From the NCBI GenBank assembly GCA_001871115.1, contig MNUR01000088.1, positions 1 through 45,610 on the forward strand: a stretch of DNA of 45,610 bases. Reading direction: 5' to 3'. A model generated the notes under the pieces. It made no database searches, had not been told where the DNA came from, and saw only the letters and a program-made list of their open reading frames with translations. This stretch comes from Elusimicrobia bacterium CG1_02_56_21. GTDB taxonomy: Bacteria; Elusimicrobiota; Elusimicrobia; Elusimicrobiales; UBA9959. Positions 35,575-45,610 of the stretch are shown here, in pieces. The stretch's first letter is position 1. Each line of letters starts with the position of its first letter. The position numbers and the translations under genes are program-made.

Positions 35575-35595
35575 AATTATGACCGCAAAGAGAGT

Positions 35596-35800
35596 GTGCA
35601 TTATCACCTTCGGCTGAGCTGTGGATTCAATTCAACCGTACTCTCTATAAGTTCCTCAAAACATTGTATGCCTGATCTTATCCGCGAGAAGCCGCACGCC
35701 GGCTGCTCCTTGCCGCTAGGAAGCGGGGTCAAGGCCTGATCACTGTTATGTAGCCCCCGTGGGGAAACAGCAACAGGCACCCATGCCGGTACAGCCCGGC
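35596..35800. repeat. Mosaic intergenic repeat, copy A
   Basis: This is one of three related intergenic segments (others at 42712 and 45051). Modules in order: CACCTTCGGCTGA (35605-35617); a 43-base block at 35653-35695 that differs from copy B (42768-42810) at only two positions; CTGCTCCTTGCCGC and CCTGATCACTG, shared with copy C; TGTAGCCCCCGT; and ATGCCGGTACAGCCCGG, shared with copy B. No coding potential is evident. It fills the 303-base gap before the 35878 gene. Confidence 0.8.
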
Positions 35801-39555: not shown

Positions 39556-40470
39556 ATGAATAAACAAAATAACCAGGAGAAGATGGGAAACGCCACAAAC
39601 GCGCAAACCGCAGCCTATGCCGCCCTGAGCGACGCTGAACTTATTGACCTGATGTTCACAGGAGCGGACCGGCTCCCCATGGAATTTGCGCGGGAAGTTA
39701 TTGCAAGAGGGACGCGCATGATTGCTCCCATGGCCGGGATAATAGCCGAGCCTAAAAACTGGGAGCGGGACGACGACGGCTGCTGGGCCGTTTTACACTC
39801 CGTGTTCCTTGCCGGCGCCATCGGTGGCAAAGAGGCCGTGAAACCACTTATAGCCTCTATTCTTCCGGCTACGGAAACAAGCAACTATTGGATCACCGAA
39901 GCGCTCCCCGCTATTTTCGGGCGCGTGGGGCTGTGCGCCGTGGACGAGCTTAAGATCATAGCGCGTAATTCCGCCTGGGACTGGTATCCCCGAAGTACCG
40001 CCTTTGAAGGACTGGGCGCCATAGCGCTGAACAACCCGGAATTTGAGCCTGAAGCGCTTTCATTTCTGGCTGCCATAGCTGCGGATAAAAAGGAAGACCC
40101 CGAAGGGCGGGTGTGGGCGGGGCAGACGCTGCTTAATTTCGGGAAAGCGGAGCACAAAGACCTGCTGCTTGAACTGGCTGAGACTATCGTTCTGAACAGG
40201 GAGTTCAGCCGGGACAACGTTGAAAAAGCCGCTTCCGGCAAGACCTGTTTCACGCAATATCAAAAAGACTGGCTCAGCTTCTATTCCCCTGCCGAACTAG
40301 CCGTCAGGCAAAAGCGCTGGGAAGAAGAGGCCTGCAGCGGCGACGAAGAACCGGAGAGTGACGGTCAGCTCCCTATCTTTTCTGAGACGGAACGGGCGCC
40401 TAAGATCGGGCGCAATGAACCCTGCCCGTGCGGGTCCGGCAAAAAATACAAGAAATGCTGCGGCGGCTAA
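39556..40470 (+). CDS. DUF1186/HEAT-like protein with SEC-C zinc motif
   Basis: The 304-residue cytoplasmic protein has a helical repeat body (about 20-220; LPMEFAREVIARGTRMI, NYWITEALPAIFG). It resembles DUF1186 proteins. The C-terminus is a SEC-C motif, IGRNEPCPCGSGKKYKKCCG, a zinc knuckle found on SecA tails and on many adaptor proteins. The start is ATG 39556; an ATG at 39583 with AGGAG in front is an alternative. It stands alone between a promoter-operator region and the convergent AAA gene. The function is unknown. Confidence 0.75.
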   Translation: MNKQNNQEKMGNATNAQTAAYAALSDAELIDLMFTGADRLPMEFAREVIARGTRMIAPMAGIIAEPKNWERDDDGCWAVLHSVFLAGAIGGKEAVKPLIASILPATETSNYWITEALPAIFGRVGLCAVDELKIIARNSAWDWYPRSTAFEGLGAIALNNPEFEPEALSFLAAIAADKKEDPEGRVWAGQTLLNFGKAEHKDLLLELAETIVLNREFSRDNVEKAASGKTCFTQYQKDWLSFYSPAELAVRQKRWEEEACSGDEEPESDGQLPIFSETERAPKIGRNEPCPCGSGKKYKKCCGG

Positions 40471-40519
40471 AAAAAGACCAGCCATAGTGAAGGGCAACTG
40501 TTTCCAAAATGGAAATAGC

Positions 40520-41833
40520 TCAAACGGGGAGGTGAACCTTCGGGAAAAGCGAAACCGCGTATAAGGGATAGTTGCAGACTTTGCCGTCTTGTTTGAAGTT
40601 CCTTAATGTAGCCATAGACAAAACGCGTGAACCGTACCGTGCGCCAAAAACAGCAAGACTTTTTTTCTGCTTGCTCATTCCCGCTTTTACTTCAAGCGGG
40701 AATATCTCATCGCTGTACGGCATAACAAAATCAACTTCAGCGCTATTATCGCTCGTCCAGTAATAAAGCGCTTTGTGCTCGTTGGCGATCAACTCCTGGG
40801 CAACATAGTTCTCCGTGAACGCGCCATTATATTCGGAGAAAAGGCGATTCCCGTCTACTATCGTTTTTTGCGATAAATCCAGCATGGCCCCTAAAAGCCC
40901 GGTATCCAGCAGATAGAGCTTAAAAATATTATCTTCGCAGTATCCGCGTAAAGGCAGCTTCGGCGCTTTTATTGAAAAACATTTATAAATGAGTCCCGCC
41001 TGCACAAGCCATTGTATAGATTCGTTATAGTCTCTAGCCCTGGCATTTTCAGAGATTTCCGAAAATTTGAATTTCTTATTTTCTTTGGCCAGCTGCCCCG
41101 GCATGGAATTCCAGATGTTCGCAATTTTGATCGCTTCGGTTTTGGTTGCGTGCTTGGAAATATCCATCAGGTAGGCCGCAAGTATTTCAGCCTGAATGGT
41201 TCTGACTTTACTCAGGTCCTTGTCATGCTTGTATTGCGCGATCGCCTCGGGCATCCCGCCGATAAAATAATATAGCCTCAGATTTTCAAGCAACTCATTG
41301 TGAAAGGCGAGGTCGAAAGGCTCGGGCGTGGCGGCGGCTTGCAGCAGCCGGCGCAGCCCGGATTTTCCGACGCCGTCAAGATATTCGCCGAAAGACAACG
41401 GATAGAGATTTATGAAATTCACTTTACCCACAGGGAAGGGGGCATAGCGGCCGATCCTTATCCCAAGCAAGGAACCGGCGGCGGCAATATGGTATTGCCC
41501 GGCTTCCTCCTGAAAATATTTAAGGCTCGTCAAAGTTTCCGGGGAATTCTGGACTTCATCAAAGATGATCAGCGTTTTTCCCGGCAGGATGTTTTTTTCC
41601 CGGTAAATAGACAGCTTCTCAATAATTTTCGTGGGTGATATTTTACCCTTGAAAAAATCGTTTAAAGCGGGATCTTCTTCAAAATTAAAATATGCAGTAT
41701 CCTGATATTCATTTTTTCCGAATTCCTTCAGGATATAGGTTTTACCCACTTGCCTGGCGCCCTGAAGAATTAAAGGTTTCCTGGTATCGGACTTTTTCCA
41801 GCTGATAAGCCCTTGGTAAATATCTCTTTTCAT
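40520..41833 (-). CDS. AAA+ ATPase with DUF4143 C-terminal domain
   Basis: The 437-residue protein has Walker A GARQVGKT (G25-T32), Walker B LIIFDEVQ (about 90-97), and the sensor-like AAAGSLLGI. A C-terminal DUF4143 part follows (about 200-400), including YWTSDNSAEVDFVM, which resembles a nuclease-like core (D, then E-V-K in FPLEVKAG). These orphan ATPases are common in archaea and uncultured bacteria and are scattered by transfer; their role is unknown. Base composition is visibly more AT-rich than the core genes. A strong promoter (TTGATT, 17 bases, TAATAT on this strand) ends only 6 bases before the ATG. Confidence 0.92.
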   Translation of the reverse strand: MKRDIYQGLISWKKSDTRKPLILQGARQVGKTYILKEFGKNEYQDTAYFNFEEDPALNDFFKGKISPTKIIEKLSIYREKNILPGKTLIIFDEVQNSPETLTSLKYFQEEAGQYHIAAAGSLLGIRIGRYAPFPVGKVNFINLYPLSFGEYLDGVGKSGLRRLLQAAATPEPFDLAFHNELLENLRLYYFIGGMPEAIAQYKHDKDLSKVRTIQAEILAAYLMDISKHATKTEAIKIANIWNSMPGQLAKENKKFKFSEISENARARDYNESIQWLVQAGLIYKCFSIKAPKLPLRGYCEDNIFKLYLLDTGLLGAMLDLSQKTIVDGNRLFSEYNGAFTENYVAQELIANEHKALYYWTSDNSAEVDFVMPYSDEIFPLEVKAGMSKQKKSLAVFGARYGSRVLSMATLRNFKQDGKVCNYPLYAVSLFPKVHLPV

Positions 41834-41839
41834 AATGAT

Positions 41840-41868
41840 ATATTAGCCAAAAACGTGAGGACAATCAA
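41840..41868 (-). promoter_or_regulatory. Promoter of the AAA/DUF4143 gene
   Basis: On the minus strand TTGATT (41868-41863) and TAATAT (41845-41840) are separated by exactly 17 bases. The first AAACGTGA box (41851-41858) lies in the spacer, where a bound protein would block RNA polymerase. Confidence 0.6.
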
Positions 41869-41922
41869 GGAAGTGCCACCCAAAACGTGAAAACACAGAA
41901 AATACTCGTGCCGGAAACGTGA
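41851..41922. repeat. Three AAACGTGA boxes with exact 32-base spacing
   Basis: The octamer AAACGTGA occurs at 41851, 41883 and 41915. The last two are also preceded by GTGCC. The spacing is 32 bases twice, about three helical turns, so all boxes face one side of the DNA. They fill the region between the divergent AAA and BRO-N genes. Such an array could be an operator. Multiple terminal repeats of an IS21-type element end are an alternative, though no istA or istB is present. Confidence 0.75.
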
Positions 41923-41992
41923 ATATCCCCAAAAATCTGTTGAAGCGGCCCCTGAAACATTGTTTCATGAACCTATCTTAACAGGAGGTTTC

Positions 41993-42352
41993 ATGAAAGA
42001 AAAATCATTTGTGGGCAGTTGGATACGGCAGACCACCAGAGGCAAAAAGCGGTACTATTCCGTAGTAGACGCCATAGCGGGCGTCACAGGCAGCAAGAAC
42101 CCGCGGGATTACTGGTACCGGATCAAAAAGCGGCAGAGGGGACAAGGCGGACTTCAGTTGTCGACACTTTGTCGACAACTGCGTTTAAAGGCTCCGGACG
42201 GCAAATACTACCTTACCGACTGCGCTGACCAGGAGGGAATAGGCCTTATACTGCGACATCTTCCGGCCAAGGTTTCCGGCCCACTTTTACGACGGAAGAA
42301 TTTCACGGTAGAAGACCTGCAAAAAGTATCTCCTGAAGAAGAAAGCTGCTAA
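41993..42352 (+). CDS. Stand-alone BRO-N / antirepressor-type DNA-binding protein
   Basis: The 119-residue protein has WIRQTTRGKKRYYSVVDAI, then SKNPRDYWYRIKKR, then LSTLCRQLRLKAPDGK and TDCADQEG. This is the pattern of the BRO-N domain found in phage antirepressors and DinD-like proteins. No second domain follows. The ATG at 41993 has AGGAGG 6 bases upstream, which decides it over an in-frame TTG at 41960. Candidate operators lie inside and downstream of the gene (TTGTCGACAA sites), and a TGAAAC-ATT-GTTTCA palindrome lies at 41953-41967 upstream. It is divergent from the AAA gene and likely phage-derived. Confidence 0.75.
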   Translation: MKEKSFVGSWIRQTTRGKKRYYSVVDAIAGVTGSKNPRDYWYRIKKRQRGQGGLQLSTLCRQLRLKAPDGKYYLTDCADQEGIGLILRHLPAKVSGPLLRRKNFTVEDLQKVSPEEESC

Positions 42353-42637
42353 GGAGCGCGAGAGCTCCACTGCGAGTTGTCGACAAAACGCCCGCGGAAC
42401 CGGCCCAAATCGCACACCCCGAACAGACGGAATATCGGACGATCTATGGATGCGTTTACATCGCTTCGTATATCGCGTCCTGAAAACTCTATACGTAGAC
42501 ACCGGCATAGTTGAGGTGAATACCCCTGGCGCGGTTAGCGAAAAGAACCGCTCCGTGGCCGCAGAAAGATATAATAGTGAGAGTAAACTAGGACTAACCG
42601 ACCCAAATGAAAGAACCCCATAGGGAGTTGTCGACAA
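42155..42637. repeat. Recurrent TTGTCGACAA palindromes
   Basis: An 11-bp inverted repeat (CAGTTGTCGAC at 42155-42165 with its complement at 42171-42181) lies inside the BRO-N gene. It contains one exact TTGTCGACAA (42169-42178) and one off by a base. Two more exact copies within AGTTGTCGACAA lie downstream, at 42375-42386 and 42626-42637. Four sites in under 500 bases suggests a specific binding protein. Confidence 0.7.
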
Positions 42638-42675
42638 ACCCAAAAGGCAGAACCACCGGTTCTCCGACGGAAAAA

Positions 42676-42708
42676 TCGCTTCCCGGTGATGTACTCACCG
42701 GGAAGCGA
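42676..42708. repeat. Perfect 14-bp hairpin before repeat copy B
   Basis: TCGCTTCCCGGTGA (42676-42689) and its exact complement (42695-42708) surround the 5-base loop TGTAC. There is no T-run. A comparable GC hairpin stands just before copy C, so the hairpin may be part of the repeat unit. The surrounding stretch 42,390-42,670 has no gene I can support. Confidence 0.75.
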
Positions 42709-42711
42709 GTC

Positions 42712-42972
42712 CACATCGTTACCTTCGGCTGAACTTTTGCTCCGCCTACATCGTACAGTTCATCCAATCCTCAAAACATTGTATTGCTGATCTTATCCGC
42801 GAGAAGCCGCTCGCGGGCAAGAAAGTGTCGCTTCGCTCCACCCGCTGTTCGCTCGCCCTGGCGGGCTTTTCTGTTAATTATCTGTAGCCCCCGTAGGAGG
42901 CCGCAGCTGCTAGTGGGCGGGGAGGCTAATGCCGGTACAGCCCGGACAAAGCAGGGCAGTTCCGGCATTAGC
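42712..42972. repeat. Mosaic intergenic repeat, copy B
   Basis: It shares with copy A the modules TTACCTTCGGCTGA, the 43-base block (42768-42810), TGTAGCCCCCGT and ATGCCGGTACAGCCCGG. With copy C it shares GTGTCGCTTCGCTCCACCCG. It ends in a further inverted repeat, GCTAATGCCGG (42925-42935) with CCGGCATTAGC (42962-42972), with GCCC/GGGC nested inside. Confidence 0.8.
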
Positions 42973-43079
42973 AAAGACAAAATTTTCATATAGACCCTTT
43001 GGCACCAGAAAATATTCTCTTAGTGCTCTGGCTGTGTCAACTCTTGCAGGGTATGCTATGCATGTAGCAGAAGTAGCCT

Positions 43080-43173
43080 TGTAATTCGGGGGATTGGCCC
43101 CGGAGTATCCACGAACCGACCATAATCGGTTGTATCCAGGGAAAGCGAAATTTCAAATCGCTTTCCCTTTTTT
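43080..43173 (+). ncRNA. Structured leader or small RNA ending in a terminator
   Basis: Bases 43087-43106 hold a CGGGG/CCCCG hairpin, and an ACCGA/TCGGT hairpin follows at about 43113-43130, flanked by two GTATCCA copies. A perfect terminator completes the series: GGGAAAGCGA (43139-43148), complement at 43158-43167, then TTTTTT. The terminator stops 23 bases before the ATG at 43197, so it could attenuate that gene or end a separate small RNA. The upstream boundary and promoter are not clear. Confidence 0.45.
43139..43173 (+). terminator. Intrinsic terminator in front of the 43197 gene
   Basis: A 10-bp perfect stem (GGGAAAGCGA with TCGCTTTCCC) with a 9-base AT loop is followed by six T. Confidence 0.85.
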
Positions 43174-43196
43174 GTTTGGGAAAAAGGGAGAAAACT

Positions 43197-43793
43197 ATGA
43201 ACATAAAAGACAAAGCAACCTCAGGGATATTCGGAGCACTGCTTTTCTGCGGACAAGCGATCTATGCCACTGAGCCAGCCAGTATAGGAAACCTTACAGA
43301 AACAAGTGTTAAAATATCTGAAATGGATATGGATAAGGATTTTGGCGAAGCTGGCAGGGTCCTAGACACCTTCTACACTGGCGCCACTTCAAAAAAAGAG
43401 AAAGAATCTCCTGCTCTCTACGCAGACCCATCCACTACTCGTGGAGCAACCCCAGTCAAAGATATATGCAACGCTAAACCCACAAAGATAGCCCTCTCAG
43501 GAAAAGTTCCACCTATTCAGTCACAAAGCGACAAGAGCAAACACAACCGCACTGAAATTCCTATCCAGGCCGGCGCACTTGCCGCCGGCGCCGCTGCCCT
43601 TGCTTTAGCCGGCAGAAAAAAAGGGTACTTCAGCAATTATGGAGAAGACCTCGATATCGTCACAGATTTCCTTGTCGACTTAGTCACATCTGACAGCAAC
43701 CCTAAACCGCCGCCGCCCAATGAGAATTACGACGTTCATCCCACCGGCGGCGCTCCGACCTGCAATGGAGAAAATTATTGCACACGCCCATAA
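43197..43793 (+). CDS. Secreted protein of unknown function in AT-richer island
   Basis: The 198-residue protein has a signal peptide (about 1-25, ending IYATEP) and a polar Ser/Thr/Lys-rich middle. A Gly/Ala-rich hydrophobic stretch (about 125-140, AGALAAGAAALALAGRKK) follows. The tail is proline-rich (PKPPPPNENYDVHPTGG), ending with two cysteines in TCNGENYCTRP. I know no family for it. AAGGGAG 7 bases upstream supports the ATG at 43197. A terminator-like hairpin precedes it and a CPBP protease gene follows 10 bases later, so processing of this product by the protease is conceivable but unproven. Base composition is lower in GC than the core genes. Confidence 0.6.
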   Translation: MNIKDKATSGIFGALLFCGQAIYATEPASIGNLTETSVKISEMDMDKDFGEAGRVLDTFYTGATSKKEKESPALYADPSTTRGATPVKDICNAKPTKIALSGKVPPIQSQSDKSKHNRTEIPIQAGALAAGAAALALAGRKKGYFSNYGEDLDIVTDFLVDLVTSDSNPKPPPPNENYDVHPTGGAPTCNGENYCTRP

Positions 43794-43803
43794 GCAGATA
43801 AAC

Positions 43804-44544
43804 ATGCAGAACTTTACCCAGCAAAATACAAACCCTGGCGGAGAGACAAAACTCTCCGTCAGGATGCCTTTCGCGGTATTGGCCGCGCTATTGATCCTAA
43901 ATCAAGCGTTCTACCTGCTTTCCGGAAGGCTCCATCCGCACATTTTTAACTACTATACAGGCGCAGGCCATGACAAATACGCTGTAGATTTTGCAATCAC
44001 GATTGTGAAGAATATTTTAATAATAGGCTGGCAGATACTGCTCATATCATTCAGCCTCAGACTCTGTCATCTCACACAAGCTGATATAGGATGGCGGCTC
44101 CCAAAGCACTTCGGGAAAATAGCATCCGGCGTACTCATATTAATAGCTTACAGGCTCCTGAAAACTATTTTTTGGGGAAATGCAGACGGCACATTCGCCC
44201 CTCATTTAGGGCCAAGCGGCTTCTGGAGCGCATTGAACAACCCCGTTGTCTACTATCACCTGATAGTTGTCCCATTTGTATCACCGCTGTTCGAGGAACT
44301 GATATACCGCGGCCTTGTATTTAGCATTCTTGAAAAAAGACTAGGTTGGAAATGGGCGGTATTCGGCAGCGCGCTATTTTTCTCCGCATTTCACACCTCG
44401 AGCATCATATCGTTTAGTTTTGAAATTTTCATAAAAGGTATCATTTACGGACTTTTACGGAAATGGGATGGCTCGATCTGGAGCAGCACCGCCGCCCACT
44501 GCACGAACAACCTGCTAGCTTCGTGGTTTATTATCAGCATATAG
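43804..44544 (+). CDS. CPBP-family intramembrane metalloprotease
   Basis: The 246-residue protein has about seven hydrophobic segments and the CPBP (Rce1-like) motifs: E164-E165-x3-R169 in FEELIYRGLVF, FFSAFHTSS with the second-motif histidine, and HCTNNLLA near the end. The family includes CAAX proteases and bacterial proteins tied to bacteriocin self-immunity or maturation. The ATG at 43804 is used; longer frames starting at 43720 or 43765 would overlap the previous gene and have no signal. It sits 10 bases after the secreted protein and 24 before the next gene, as part of a three-gene unit. Confidence 0.88.
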   Translation: MQNFTQQNTNPGGETKLSVRMPFAVLAALLILNQAFYLLSGRLHPHIFNYYTGAGHDKYAVDFAITIVKNILIIGWQILLISFSLRLCHLTQADIGWRLPKHFGKIASGVLILIAYRLLKTIFWGNADGTFAPHLGPSGFWSALNNPVVYYHLIVVPFVSPLFEELIYRGLVFSILEKRLGWKWAVFGSALFFSAFHTSSIISFSFEIFIKGIIYGLLRKWDGSIWSSTAAHCTNNLLASWFIISI

Positions 44545-44568
44545 CGCAGAAACGGCACAATTAAATAA

Positions 44569-44991
44569 ATGACCACAGGATTCCAGATATCGAAATGGAC
44601 AAAACTCTCGGTCGTCGGTATTGTGATAGTATTTGCGGCATTAGTTCTCTATGCCATACTCCGGGCACATAATAGACGCATGCGGCCATATATGCCGATG
44701 ATTACCGAAGCTAAAGATTTGAACCTGGATTTTGACACGGCAACAAGCAACCCCGATAAGTACTTAGAAAAATACACTATCTGGTGCGTGCAGAACTTGG
44801 CAAAAGGGCAAACATATTACCACGGAGATGCCCGACGGCCAATATACGTATTCAATCATCAGCAAATGCCGATATTCACAGGATACAAGCACACAAACTG
44901 CATGGAGATGTTGTTGCAGATCAAAGGCGCAAGAGCAAACGGAACAGACCCTGGAAGCGTAGGGGTAATGTTCATAAAGGAAATCAATTGA
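44569..44991 (+). CDS. Single-pass membrane protein of unknown function
   Basis: The 140-residue protein has one hydrophobic segment (about residues 14-32, VVGIVIVFAALVLYAI). A soluble domain of about 100 residues follows, with beta-type stretches (YTIWCVQNLAKGQTYYHGD, RPIYVFNHQQMPIF) and two cysteines. I recognise no family; the end (DPGSVGVMFIKEI) could suit an OB-type fold. It is the last gene of the island and is followed by a GC hairpin and repeat copy C. Confidence 0.6.
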   Translation: MTTGFQISKWTKLSVVGIVIVFAALVLYAILRAHNRRMRPYMPMITEAKDLNLDFDTATSNPDKYLEKYTIWCVQNLAKGQTYYHGDARRPIYVFNHQQMPIFTGYKHTNCMEMLLQIKGARANGTDPGSVGVMFIKEIN

Positions 44992-45013: not shown

Positions 45014-45044
45014 GGCGGCCCGGCCCGCAGCGGGCGGGGCCGCC
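45014..45044. terminator. GC-rich hairpin closing the island operon
   Basis: A 14-base arm (45014-45027, starting GGCGGCCC) pairs with 45031-45044 at 13 of 14 positions around a 3-base loop. There is no T-run after it. It immediately precedes repeat copy C, just as the 42676 hairpin precedes copy B. Confidence 0.6.
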
Positions 45045-45050
45045 AGACTT

Positions 45051-45180
45051 GTGCACATCATTACCTTCGGCTGACCTGTGGGGACGATTCCGCCTTGCTC
45101 TGTATCGGTTCCTAAAAAATCTCTATAGATCCAGCGCCTAGATCGCCTGGTGATGCCGCGAGAAGCCGTTCGCGGGCCTG
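45051..45180. repeat. Mosaic intergenic repeat, copy C
   Basis: It begins GTGCACATCATTACCTTCGG and continues GCTGACCTGTGG, like copies A and B. It then diverges until GCCGCGAGAAGCCGTTCGCG, which restores similarity and leads directly into the 213-base tandem repeat. Confidence 0.75.
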
Positions 45181-45610
45181 ATCACTGAATTGTGTCGCTA
45201 CGCTCCACCCGGCACTACGCGCCTTCGCTCCGCTCGCTCGCCGCAGGGTGGCCGCGCTTGCCGGCCACTATGCGGCTCCCCTGCCGTCTTTGGAAGCGGT
45301 AGGCCGATCTTATCCGCGAGATGTCGTCGCAGGCGTGGCCACGCAGCGCGGCCCCGCACTGCTCCTTGCCGCGAGAAGCGGGTCGCGGGCCTGATCACTG
45401 AATTGTGTCGCTTCGCTCCACCCGGCACTACGCGCCTTCGCTCCGCTCGCTCGCCGCAGGGTGGCCGCGCTTGCCGGCCACTATGCGGCTCCCCTGCCGT
45501 CTTTGGAAGCGGTAGGCCGATCTTATCCGCGAGATGTCGTCGCAGGCGTGGCCACGCAGCGCGGCCCCGCACTGCTCCTTGCCGCGAGAAGCGGGTTCGC
45601 AAGGCTCGGC
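45181..45610. repeat. 213-bp tandem duplication at the window end
   Basis: Unit one (45181-45393) and unit two (from 45394) agree almost throughout; I see one substitution (A at 45200, T at 45413) before the end of unit two, which diverges after GAGAAGCGGG. Each unit contains GATCTTATCCGCGAGA and CTGCTCCTTGCCGC, modules also present in copy A. The period is divisible by three, so an open minus-strand frame spans it, but I do not regard it as a gene. Confidence 0.85.

Follow-up and report, generated by a model that had tools for sequence, protein, structure and literature searches.

CPBP-family glutamic intramembrane proteases have documented roles in peptide maturation and self-immunity (PMC10482373, PMC11980579), as the first-pass annotation of the locus described here had stated, and their prokaryotic members are called largely unexplored (PMC11980579). 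In the MrtJ/JDVT-CTERM and MrtX/MYXO-CTERM systems, a CPBP enzyme is paired with an exported protein in which a hydrophobic helix is followed by basic residues; MrtJ forms two-gene pairs with one target, and co-expression of MrtX in E. coli leads to cleavage of MYXO-CTERM (PMC11980579). The S. aureus CPBP protein MroQ helps to make the autoinducing peptide (AIP) from AgrD, for which AgrB is also needed, and SkkI, whose proteolytic activity is required, is both bacteriocin receptor and immunity protein (PMC10482373). Riboswitches of the 2'-deoxyguanosine-II class (2dG-II) have been associated with ComEC, endonuclease I, phospholipase D and receiver domain genes, associations that leave the physiology of the class open (PMC8872408), and the class has been placed in Bacteroidetes (PMC8872408, PMC9295807). 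The stretch of DNA analysed here (the window, 45,610 nucleotides) is the whole of contig C95 of the 2.99 Mb, 139-contig genome of Elusimicrobia bacterium CG1_02_56_21, a member of the Elusimicrobiota. It contains an apparent operon of three genes, encoding an exported protein (gene 1), a CPBP protein (gene 2) and a single-pass membrane protein (gene 3), behind a predicted 2dG-II riboswitch. We put at about 50% the probability that this is an operon activated by 2'-deoxyguanosine (2'-dG) in which a membrane-anchored proprotein is encoded with its dedicated CPBP intramembrane protease. The aptamer match, the terminator overlap, the gene linkage, the CPBP motifs and the matching of gene 1 tails to CPBP classes were all computed in this work. 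The features concerned are as follows.

43074-43144, + strand: 2'-deoxyguanosine-II (2dG-II) purine riboswitch aptamer, positions 1-71 of 71, Rfam RF03165
43138-43168, + strand: intrinsic terminator hairpin followed by a T-run, -16.6 kcal/mol
43197-43793, + strand: gene 1, exported protein, 198 aa, with signal peptide, conserved N-domain, Gly/Ala segment and variable tail
43557-43622, + strand: hydrophobic Gly/Ala segment of gene 1 plus RKK (residues 121-142), proposed CPBP cleavage region
43623-43790, + strand: variable tail of gene 1 (residues 143-198, 56 residues), carrying C189 and C195
43804-44544, + strand: gene 2, CPBP (glutamic intramembrane protease family), 246 aa, PF02517
44293-44310, + strand: EExxxR motif of gene 2 (EELIYR), from sequence and alignment
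44380-44394, + strand: FxxxH motif of gene 2 (FSAFH), from sequence and alignment
44497-44511, + strand: HxxxN motif of gene 2 (HCTNN), from sequence and alignment
44569-44991, + strand: gene 3, single-pass membrane-anchored protein, 140 aa, optional third gene

The aptamer lies directly upstream of gene 1 and matches RF03165 at 82.8 bits (gathering cut-off 60, E 2.7e-21, Rfam); a scan of the whole window against Rfam returned it again, together with one tRNA. The module proposed in the first-pass annotation had left out this riboswitch and the wider set of exported proteins found behind such switches. The sequence just 5' of gene 1 is 78–87% alike at five gene 1 loci in related genomes and at one further locus. 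The AGGG that forms the 5' arm of the terminator also belongs to the P1 helix of the aptamer, in its 3' strand (about 43137-43141), so that hairpin and P1 compete and ligand-ON transcriptional control is predicted; the predicted expression platform is coupled to P1 through this shared strand. A terminator (at or below -9 kcal/mol) is present at 67 of 85 2dG-II sites, and at 63 of the 85, the window included, it starts in P1; among 850 dinucleotide shuffles there are 19 terminators, none of which starts in P1 (0/850). The 85 sites comprise a set of 60, five others of this genome, 18 from relatives, the window and relative G027 (genomes, contigs and loci carry the prefixes G, C and L). The 18 relative sites were chosen by hand, five of them because of gene 1, and the 72 best-scoring RF03165 places are all covered by the 60 sites plus the others included; none of the counts includes L125 and L138, where the contigs stop just behind the switch. 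In the absence of ligand, the terminator hairpin (43138-43168) would fold and transcription would halt, and with 2'-dG, P1 would take the AGGG of the terminator stem and allow read-through into all three genes. 2'-Deoxyguanosine is a DNA breakdown product, and we infer that it is the ligand of 43074-43144 and that the direction in cells is ON.

The three open reading frames (ORFs) are co-directional, with intergenic gaps of 10 nucleotides (nt) between gene 1 and the CPBP gene and 24 nt between the CPBP gene and gene 3, and their standing as genes is supported by homologues in relatives (the top ones beyond this genome being 66%, 69% and 64% identical, respectively). The first-pass annotation had read 43197-44991 as three closely spaced genes for a secreted protein with a Gly/Ala segment and a two-cysteine end, a CPBP protein and a single-pass protein, and this description is borne out. 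The ORFs are found at these positions; the N-terminus of gene 1 resembles a signal peptide, its Gly/Ala-rich segment at residues 122–139 is followed by RKK, and C189 and C195 lie near its end; gene 2 matches PF02517 far above the cut-off (E 6.7e-19, 68.4 bits against 22.4); and gene 3 has one N-terminal hydrophobic helix.

Comparison of related genomes shows that gene 1 and the CPBP gene are a conserved module. A same-strand CPBP gene lies directly 3' of gene 1 at all 11 intact loci whose gene 1 bears the hydrophobic segment (the window, G026 C35, G026 C41, G027, G033, G002, G016, G030, G152, G035 and G139; five genera), and hydropathy supports the segment at each of them. By comparison, none of the three distinct loci without the segment (G024 C40, G026 C14, and G001 C25 with its near-copy G007) has a CPBP gene directly downstream, and the chance of this 11/3 split arising at random is 1 in 364 by hand calculation. 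Left out of the count were G034 (decayed, with a broken gene 1 and a CPBP fragment), G017 (truncated where its contig stops) and three remote members with other layouts, G001 C36, G157 and G033 C118. At G035 and G139 the module forms the C-terminal part of larger proteins, and the N-domain is barely recognisable (0.09–0.22). The host genome has six 2dG-II sites and only three PF02517 genes (E <= 1e-5), two of which are second genes behind 2dG-II; the probability that at least two of the three would lie in the 2 kb behind any of the six sites is near 1e-5, again by hand. It is extremely improbable that these are three unrelated genes that happen to adjoin in an AT-rich, repeat-rich region, given the linkage at 11/11 segment-bearing loci and a riboswitch common to seven gene 1 loci. 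The fact that gene 3 is unlinked in most genomes having it does favour chance, and chance adjacency, which the conserved linkage refutes for genes 1 and 2, may still apply to gene 3.

Gene 1 homologues are found at E <= 1 in 15 of 61 genomes (the host and 60 relatives), and a profile search, with up to nine candidates scored per genome, finds the family at E 0.01 in 19 of 340 genomes, the weakest of these matches being doubtful. In close relatives the N-region is alike (GNLxxTSxKISxxDMxKxxxEAGxxLxxFYxG ... CNAKPSKI ... KVPP), and residues 121–137 of the window protein have a mean hydropathy of 1.7; the G033 gene has an in-frame stop within the signal-peptide region. Searches with gene 1 of Pfam (up to E 1), NCBIfam (up to E 0.1) and the phage and plasmid collections gave no match, and its profile matches no PDB sequence. 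A single-sequence AlphaFold model was set aside as too poor for use (mean predicted local distance difference test, pLDDT, 39.0). The remote gene 1-like protein at L072 (G033:C118, 2929-3537, minus strand) has a Gly-rich hydrophobic end that recalls class IIb bacteriocins by eye; there is no 2dG-II on the stretch fetched for this locus.

The start of gene 2 that relatives support gives 246 aa from an ATG; an earlier in-frame ATG inside gene 1 would give 274 aa. Among the 11 partner CPBP proteins, EExxxR is present in 10, FxxxH in nine and HxxxN in 10. The named myxosortase-type models of NCBIfam match below their cut-offs only (best MrtS, 40.6 against 130; MrtJ 33.7 against 75, Mrt_core 27.8 against 100), and no PDB sequence match was found for the protein. 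Judged by its sequence, gene 2 is a CPBP protein and not a named myxosortase (MrtX, MrtC, MrtP, MrtS or MrtJ). The locus resembles the MrtJ/JDVT-CTERM and MrtX/MYXO-CTERM systems in pairing a CPBP gene with that of an exported protein with a hydrophobic helix and then basic residues, and MrtJ further in its two-gene neighbourhood (PMC11980579). It differs in three respects. First, the window CPBP protein scores far below the Mrt cut-offs. Second, myxosortase targets carry a C-terminal tripartite signal (signature motif, helix, basic end) that gene 1 lacks; in the gene 1 family the helix and basic residues are internal, and a variable tail of ~50–130 residues follows (56 in the window). Third, the window operon has a riboswitch in front.

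MrtX is the precedent for cleavage of a helix signal of this kind in a partner protein by a bacterial CPBP enzyme (PMC11980579). Under the proprotein reading, gene 1 would be exported by way of its signal peptide, with the Gly/Ala segment acting as a stop-transfer sequence in the inner membrane and RKK remaining cytoplasmic. The CPBP glutamic protease would recognise its own partner through the hydrophobic segment and the tail, and would cut there, separating the N-domain from the Cys-bearing tail to give a matured exported product; gene 3 would be an accessory of some class A modules only (classes are defined below). We infer the topology, the cleavage and its site, and the role of the product.

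CPBP classes were fixed before the tails were compared, using bit scores with composition correction off. Class A comprises the window, G026 twice, G027 and G033 (206–369 bits), class D comprises G002, G035 and G139 (142–235 bits), and class B comprises G016 and G152, which are reciprocal best matches at 46 bits only. The N-domains are alike across nine loci (normalised score 0.31–0.79). With the first 22 tail residues dropped, the distal tails of 12 of the 55 locus pairs are significantly alike (shuffle test, Bonferroni), and 11 of these 12 pairs are of the same CPBP class, out of 14 same-class pairs in total; the single cross-class tail match is G016-G030. Fisher's test gives P 3e-8 for this matching, on the assumption of independent pairs, which they are not. 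Over the eleven loci, Mantel comparison of the whole tail with the CPBP protein gives a raw r of 0.66 (P 0.001) and a partial r, on the N-domain, of 0.67 (P 0.0003); the partial rank test on the N-domain gives r 0.29 (P 0.036), and the N-domain itself against CPBP gives r 0.17 (P 0.23). These tail-only and distal-tail tests replaced a first Mantel test of the C-part at nine loci (r 0.71, P 0.0003; partial 0.72, P 0.0001; N-domain 0.19, P 0.21), which had included the conserved hydrophobic segment. Close relatives, and the D and B tails, show a clear match of tail to CPBP, and the rank trend over all loci is weak. This matching provides a natural set of enzyme-partner pairs from which to learn how bacterial CPBP proteases choose their targets.

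Polymorphic toxins have a conserved N-part, an exchangeable C-part and a matched downstream partner, and the same evidence can be read in these terms: gene 1 would be an antimicrobial for export, its export domain common to the family and its C-parts exchangeable, the CPBP protein its cognate immunity protein, and dG from lysed neighbours or kin the trigger. The conserved N-part, exchangeable C-part and matched CPBP partner of gene 1 all fit. So does G002, where the class D CPBP gene is followed by a CPBP fragment most like the G016 enzyme (44 bits; next best 28.5), which looks like partner replacement. Gly/Ala segments are also found in membrane-active bacteriocins. SkkI is a precedent (PMC10482373), and SkkI-type immunity shares with the window a CPBP gene adjoining the gene of a small exported product; it differs in that gene 1 matches no bacteriocin family in Pfam or NCBIfam, though a new class could escape such models. 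No known toxin or other family is recognised in gene 1, its profile has no PDB relative, and some tails are ~50 aa with a single short Cys loop while others are of low complexity. We regard this explanation as the main rival of the proprotein reading, and as clearly less likely than it.

Two modes of control are found in the gene 1 family. RF03165 is present at E <= 0.001 in 97 of 340 Elusimicrobiota genomes, including all 32 of the host genus, and exceeds the cut-off in 88; in 14 control genomes there is one sub-threshold match, in Bacillus subtilis. At gene 1 the riboswitch is found at seven loci (the window, G026 twice, G027, G033, G034 and G152). A sigma54-type promoter lies 66–94 nt upstream at seven loci of the wider family (G002, G030, G017, G001 and near-copy G007, and the remote members G001 C36 and G157), in a scan of up to 400 nt upstream with a background of 0.016 per 400 bases. 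Near-consensus sigma54 sites that the pattern missed were seen by eye at G024 and G026 C14. Neither feature was found at G035 or G139, and none of these loci has both, within the riboswitch scans and the same promoter scan; at G016 there are only 35 nt of sequence upstream of gene 1.

These promoters bear on a further explanation, in which cleavage of the gene 1 tail by the CPBP enzyme would release a small Cys-loop peptide, and histidine kinase/sigma54 circuits would sense it. Members without the riboswitch carry the promoters, short Cys loops (C-x5-C-TRP, C-x4-C-GLP) stand at the end of class A tails, G030 gene 1 stands just after a histidine kinase/receiver-like gene (by eye), and another type of 2dG-II operon joins a small exported peptide, a radical S-adenosylmethionine (SAM) enzyme and a histidine kinase. 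MroQ is the precedent, and the likeness to MroQ/AgrD lies in maturation of a small exported peptide by a CPBP enzyme (PMC10482373). In contrast to that system, no AgrB-like gene was recognised in the window operon, nor was a receptor gene. AgrD is not known to have a Sec signal peptide, unlike gene 1. A stop-transfer topology would moreover keep the tail cytoplasmic, and the class B and D tails are long. Peptide signalling of this kind is a further live rival, though an unlikely one.

Several observations weigh against a dedicated, dG-controlled proprotein and protease. The 46 bits of class B are no more than some cross-class pairs reach (up to 54, G030-G139), the CPBP protein of G030 falls outside every class, and classes A and D are related (70–119 bits between them). 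The rank Mantel test of tail against CPBP is not significant (r 0.22, P 0.105), and the hydrophobic segment does not track CPBP class (Mantel r 0.15, P 0.25). As tail and CPBP gene adjoin, one recombination break in gene 1 could shift both, and no protein contact need be supposed. The segment is Ala/Gly-rich, which makes membrane anchoring uncertain. Some partner enzymes depart from the motifs: the R of EExxxR is C in G152, the F of FxxxH is missing in G016 and G030, and the N of HxxxN is missing in G035. The segment-less member of G001/G007 does have a neighbouring CPBP gene, divergent and upstream. Finally, sigma54-type promoters replace the riboswitch in other members, so that dG control is not intrinsic to the module.

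A CPBP gene is not confined to gene 1 among the genes behind 2dG-II switches. On host contig C35, the switch is followed by the gene of an exported protein with VDFD just past its signal peptide and then by a CPBP gene. CPBP genes are among the first genes at 11 of 83 sites, six behind VDFD proteins and five behind gene 1 (one of them the decayed G034 fragment). As some of the 83 sites were picked for gene 1, the 72 best-scoring RF03165 places give a fairer count, and here a CPBP gene stands close behind the switch at eight of 71 usable sites (G015 C42, G030 C31, G012 C18, G157 C68, the window, G152, G026 C41 and G026 C35). That switch and CPBP gene are common to two unrelated exported families speaks for a functional connection of the protease with the exported protein. 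The Elusimicrobiota switches share with published 2'-dG-II riboswitches, in the window, a full-length aptamer over the cut-off and, behind one host switch, a ComEC-type gene (PMC8872408); they differ in their phylum and in the exported proteins with CPBP or radical SAM partners downstream. No report of the association described here was found in searches confined to open-licence PMC papers, some of them judged by title and the opening of the abstract.

A wider proposal, which we consider possible and advance tentatively, is that the Elusimicrobiota have a DNA-debris response in which 2'-dG, through ON-type 2dG-II switches, induces a whole set of exported proteins, many of which would be made together with a processing partner of their own. 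Its arms would be polymorphic proproteins with tail-matched exchangeable CPBP enzymes, VDFD proteins with CPBP enzymes, and small peptides with radical SAM enzymes. If so, peptide maturation would be cued by a nucleoside and would serve competition, scavenging or signalling. The ON-type platforms and the frequent exported proteins downstream yield the testable claim that DNA breakdown products induce peptide export and processing, and suggest that cells release processed peptides on meeting DNA debris.

Further types of operon recur behind 2dG-II. At L131 (G030:C20), L141, L143, L147, L157, L161 and L167, an exported peptide of 65–80 aa is followed by a radical SAM enzyme, further genes and a histidine kinase-like gene. 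The L131 radical SAM enzyme matches PF04055, its nearest NCBIfam model being the YydG peptide epimerase (45.8 bits, far below cut-off), and the kinase matches HisKA, as tested on the L134 copy; the operon looks like an undescribed modified-peptide signalling system. At L120 (G000:C113:328 onward), 2dG-II precedes an exported trypsin-like protease, a Cys/Pro-rich small protein that by eye resembles the precursor of a ribosomally synthesised and post-translationally modified peptide (RiPP), another exported protein and a radical SAM-like protein, which is weakly like geopeptide maturase and is truncated where the contig stops. Exported stand-alone ComEC-type metallo-beta-lactamase domains follow the switch at L123 (G000:C91), L127, L132, L139 and L165; L123 scores 101.6 bits against ComEC_Rec2 (NCBIfam, cut-off 190), and the other four are assigned by likeness. 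These five sites have no terminator, and GGAGG lies close behind P1, with GGAGGTGGATATG at most ~20 nt behind it, so that control here is perhaps translational. At L124, L133, L135, L137, L176 and L188, the switch and an exported protein are followed by FtsX-like, M23-like and S41-like genes (named by eye), and it is possible that dG sensing is tied to cell-wall cutting at such operons. A short motif near xxFD(G) was seen by eye just past the signal peptide in many otherwise unlike exported proteins behind 2dG-II (L122, L126, L128-L130, L136, L140, L142, L151, L154, L156, L186 and L192), and is possibly a sorting or recognition tag.

Gene 3 belongs to the operon less firmly. The first-pass annotation had treated the three genes as one set, which holds for gene 1 and the CPBP gene; gene 3 is linked at four loci only (the window, G026 twice and G027, all with class A CPBP). 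In G033, also of class A, no gene 3 is found within the 470 bases remaining on the contig. The family is present in 27 of 61 genomes at E <= 1 (21 of these at E <= 0.001), and in G002, G007, G017, G024, G030, G033, G034 and G035 it is on other contigs than gene 1. The copy at L041 lies between carbamate kinase-like and threonine synthase-like genes (by eye). Gene 3 looks like a member of a chromosomal family drawn into the module. No family is assigned to the protein: Pfam gave a single match, below threshold (EccD, E 0.11), and NCBIfam none up to E 0.1, and its profile gave two weak matches to PDB sequences (E 0.31 and 0.67), neither usable. Its single-sequence AlphaFold model was likewise too poor for use (mean pLDDT 56.4). 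The last 15 residues of gene 3 plus ~50 nt beyond recur at L045, the single public locus given by the gene 3 scan (100 bp, 90%), perhaps as a remnant.

The surroundings of the operon contain several repeats, listed here with a palindrome (no strand is given for repeats B and C or for the palindrome).

35582-35703: repeat A; repeats A, B and C are 63–75% alike
42155-42181 (palindrome), 42361-42387 and 42612-42638: copies of TTGTCGACAA-type sequence
42697-42818: repeat B, upstream of the operon
45014-45044: G+C-rich palindrome (self-inverse match 90%), 3' of gene 3
45051-45118: repeat C, downstream of the operon, adjoining a 213-bp repeat

Repeats B and C lie on either side of the genes, as the first-pass annotation had stated. 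It had also called the genes an AT-richer island of distinct composition. The G+C content is indeed 0.464 across 43074-44991 against 0.572 across 1-39999, but that of 40000-43073 is low too (0.492), so that the 3 kb before the operon are AT-richer too and low G+C is not particular to the three genes. Support for an imported element ends at base composition and nearby repeats, gene 1 being unmatched in the phage and plasmid collections; as the composition is common to the operon and the 3 kb upstream, a horizontal island was dropped as an explanation. The palindrome at 45014-45044 is a possible end of the transcription unit. The TTGTCGACAA-type sequences are repeated within 42155-42638, around and behind a small ORF upstream of the operon. 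A near-perfect 213-bp tandem repeat occupies 45154-45610, up to the contig end; its relatives are found on other contigs of the same genome, some close to contig starts, and beside the module in G026.

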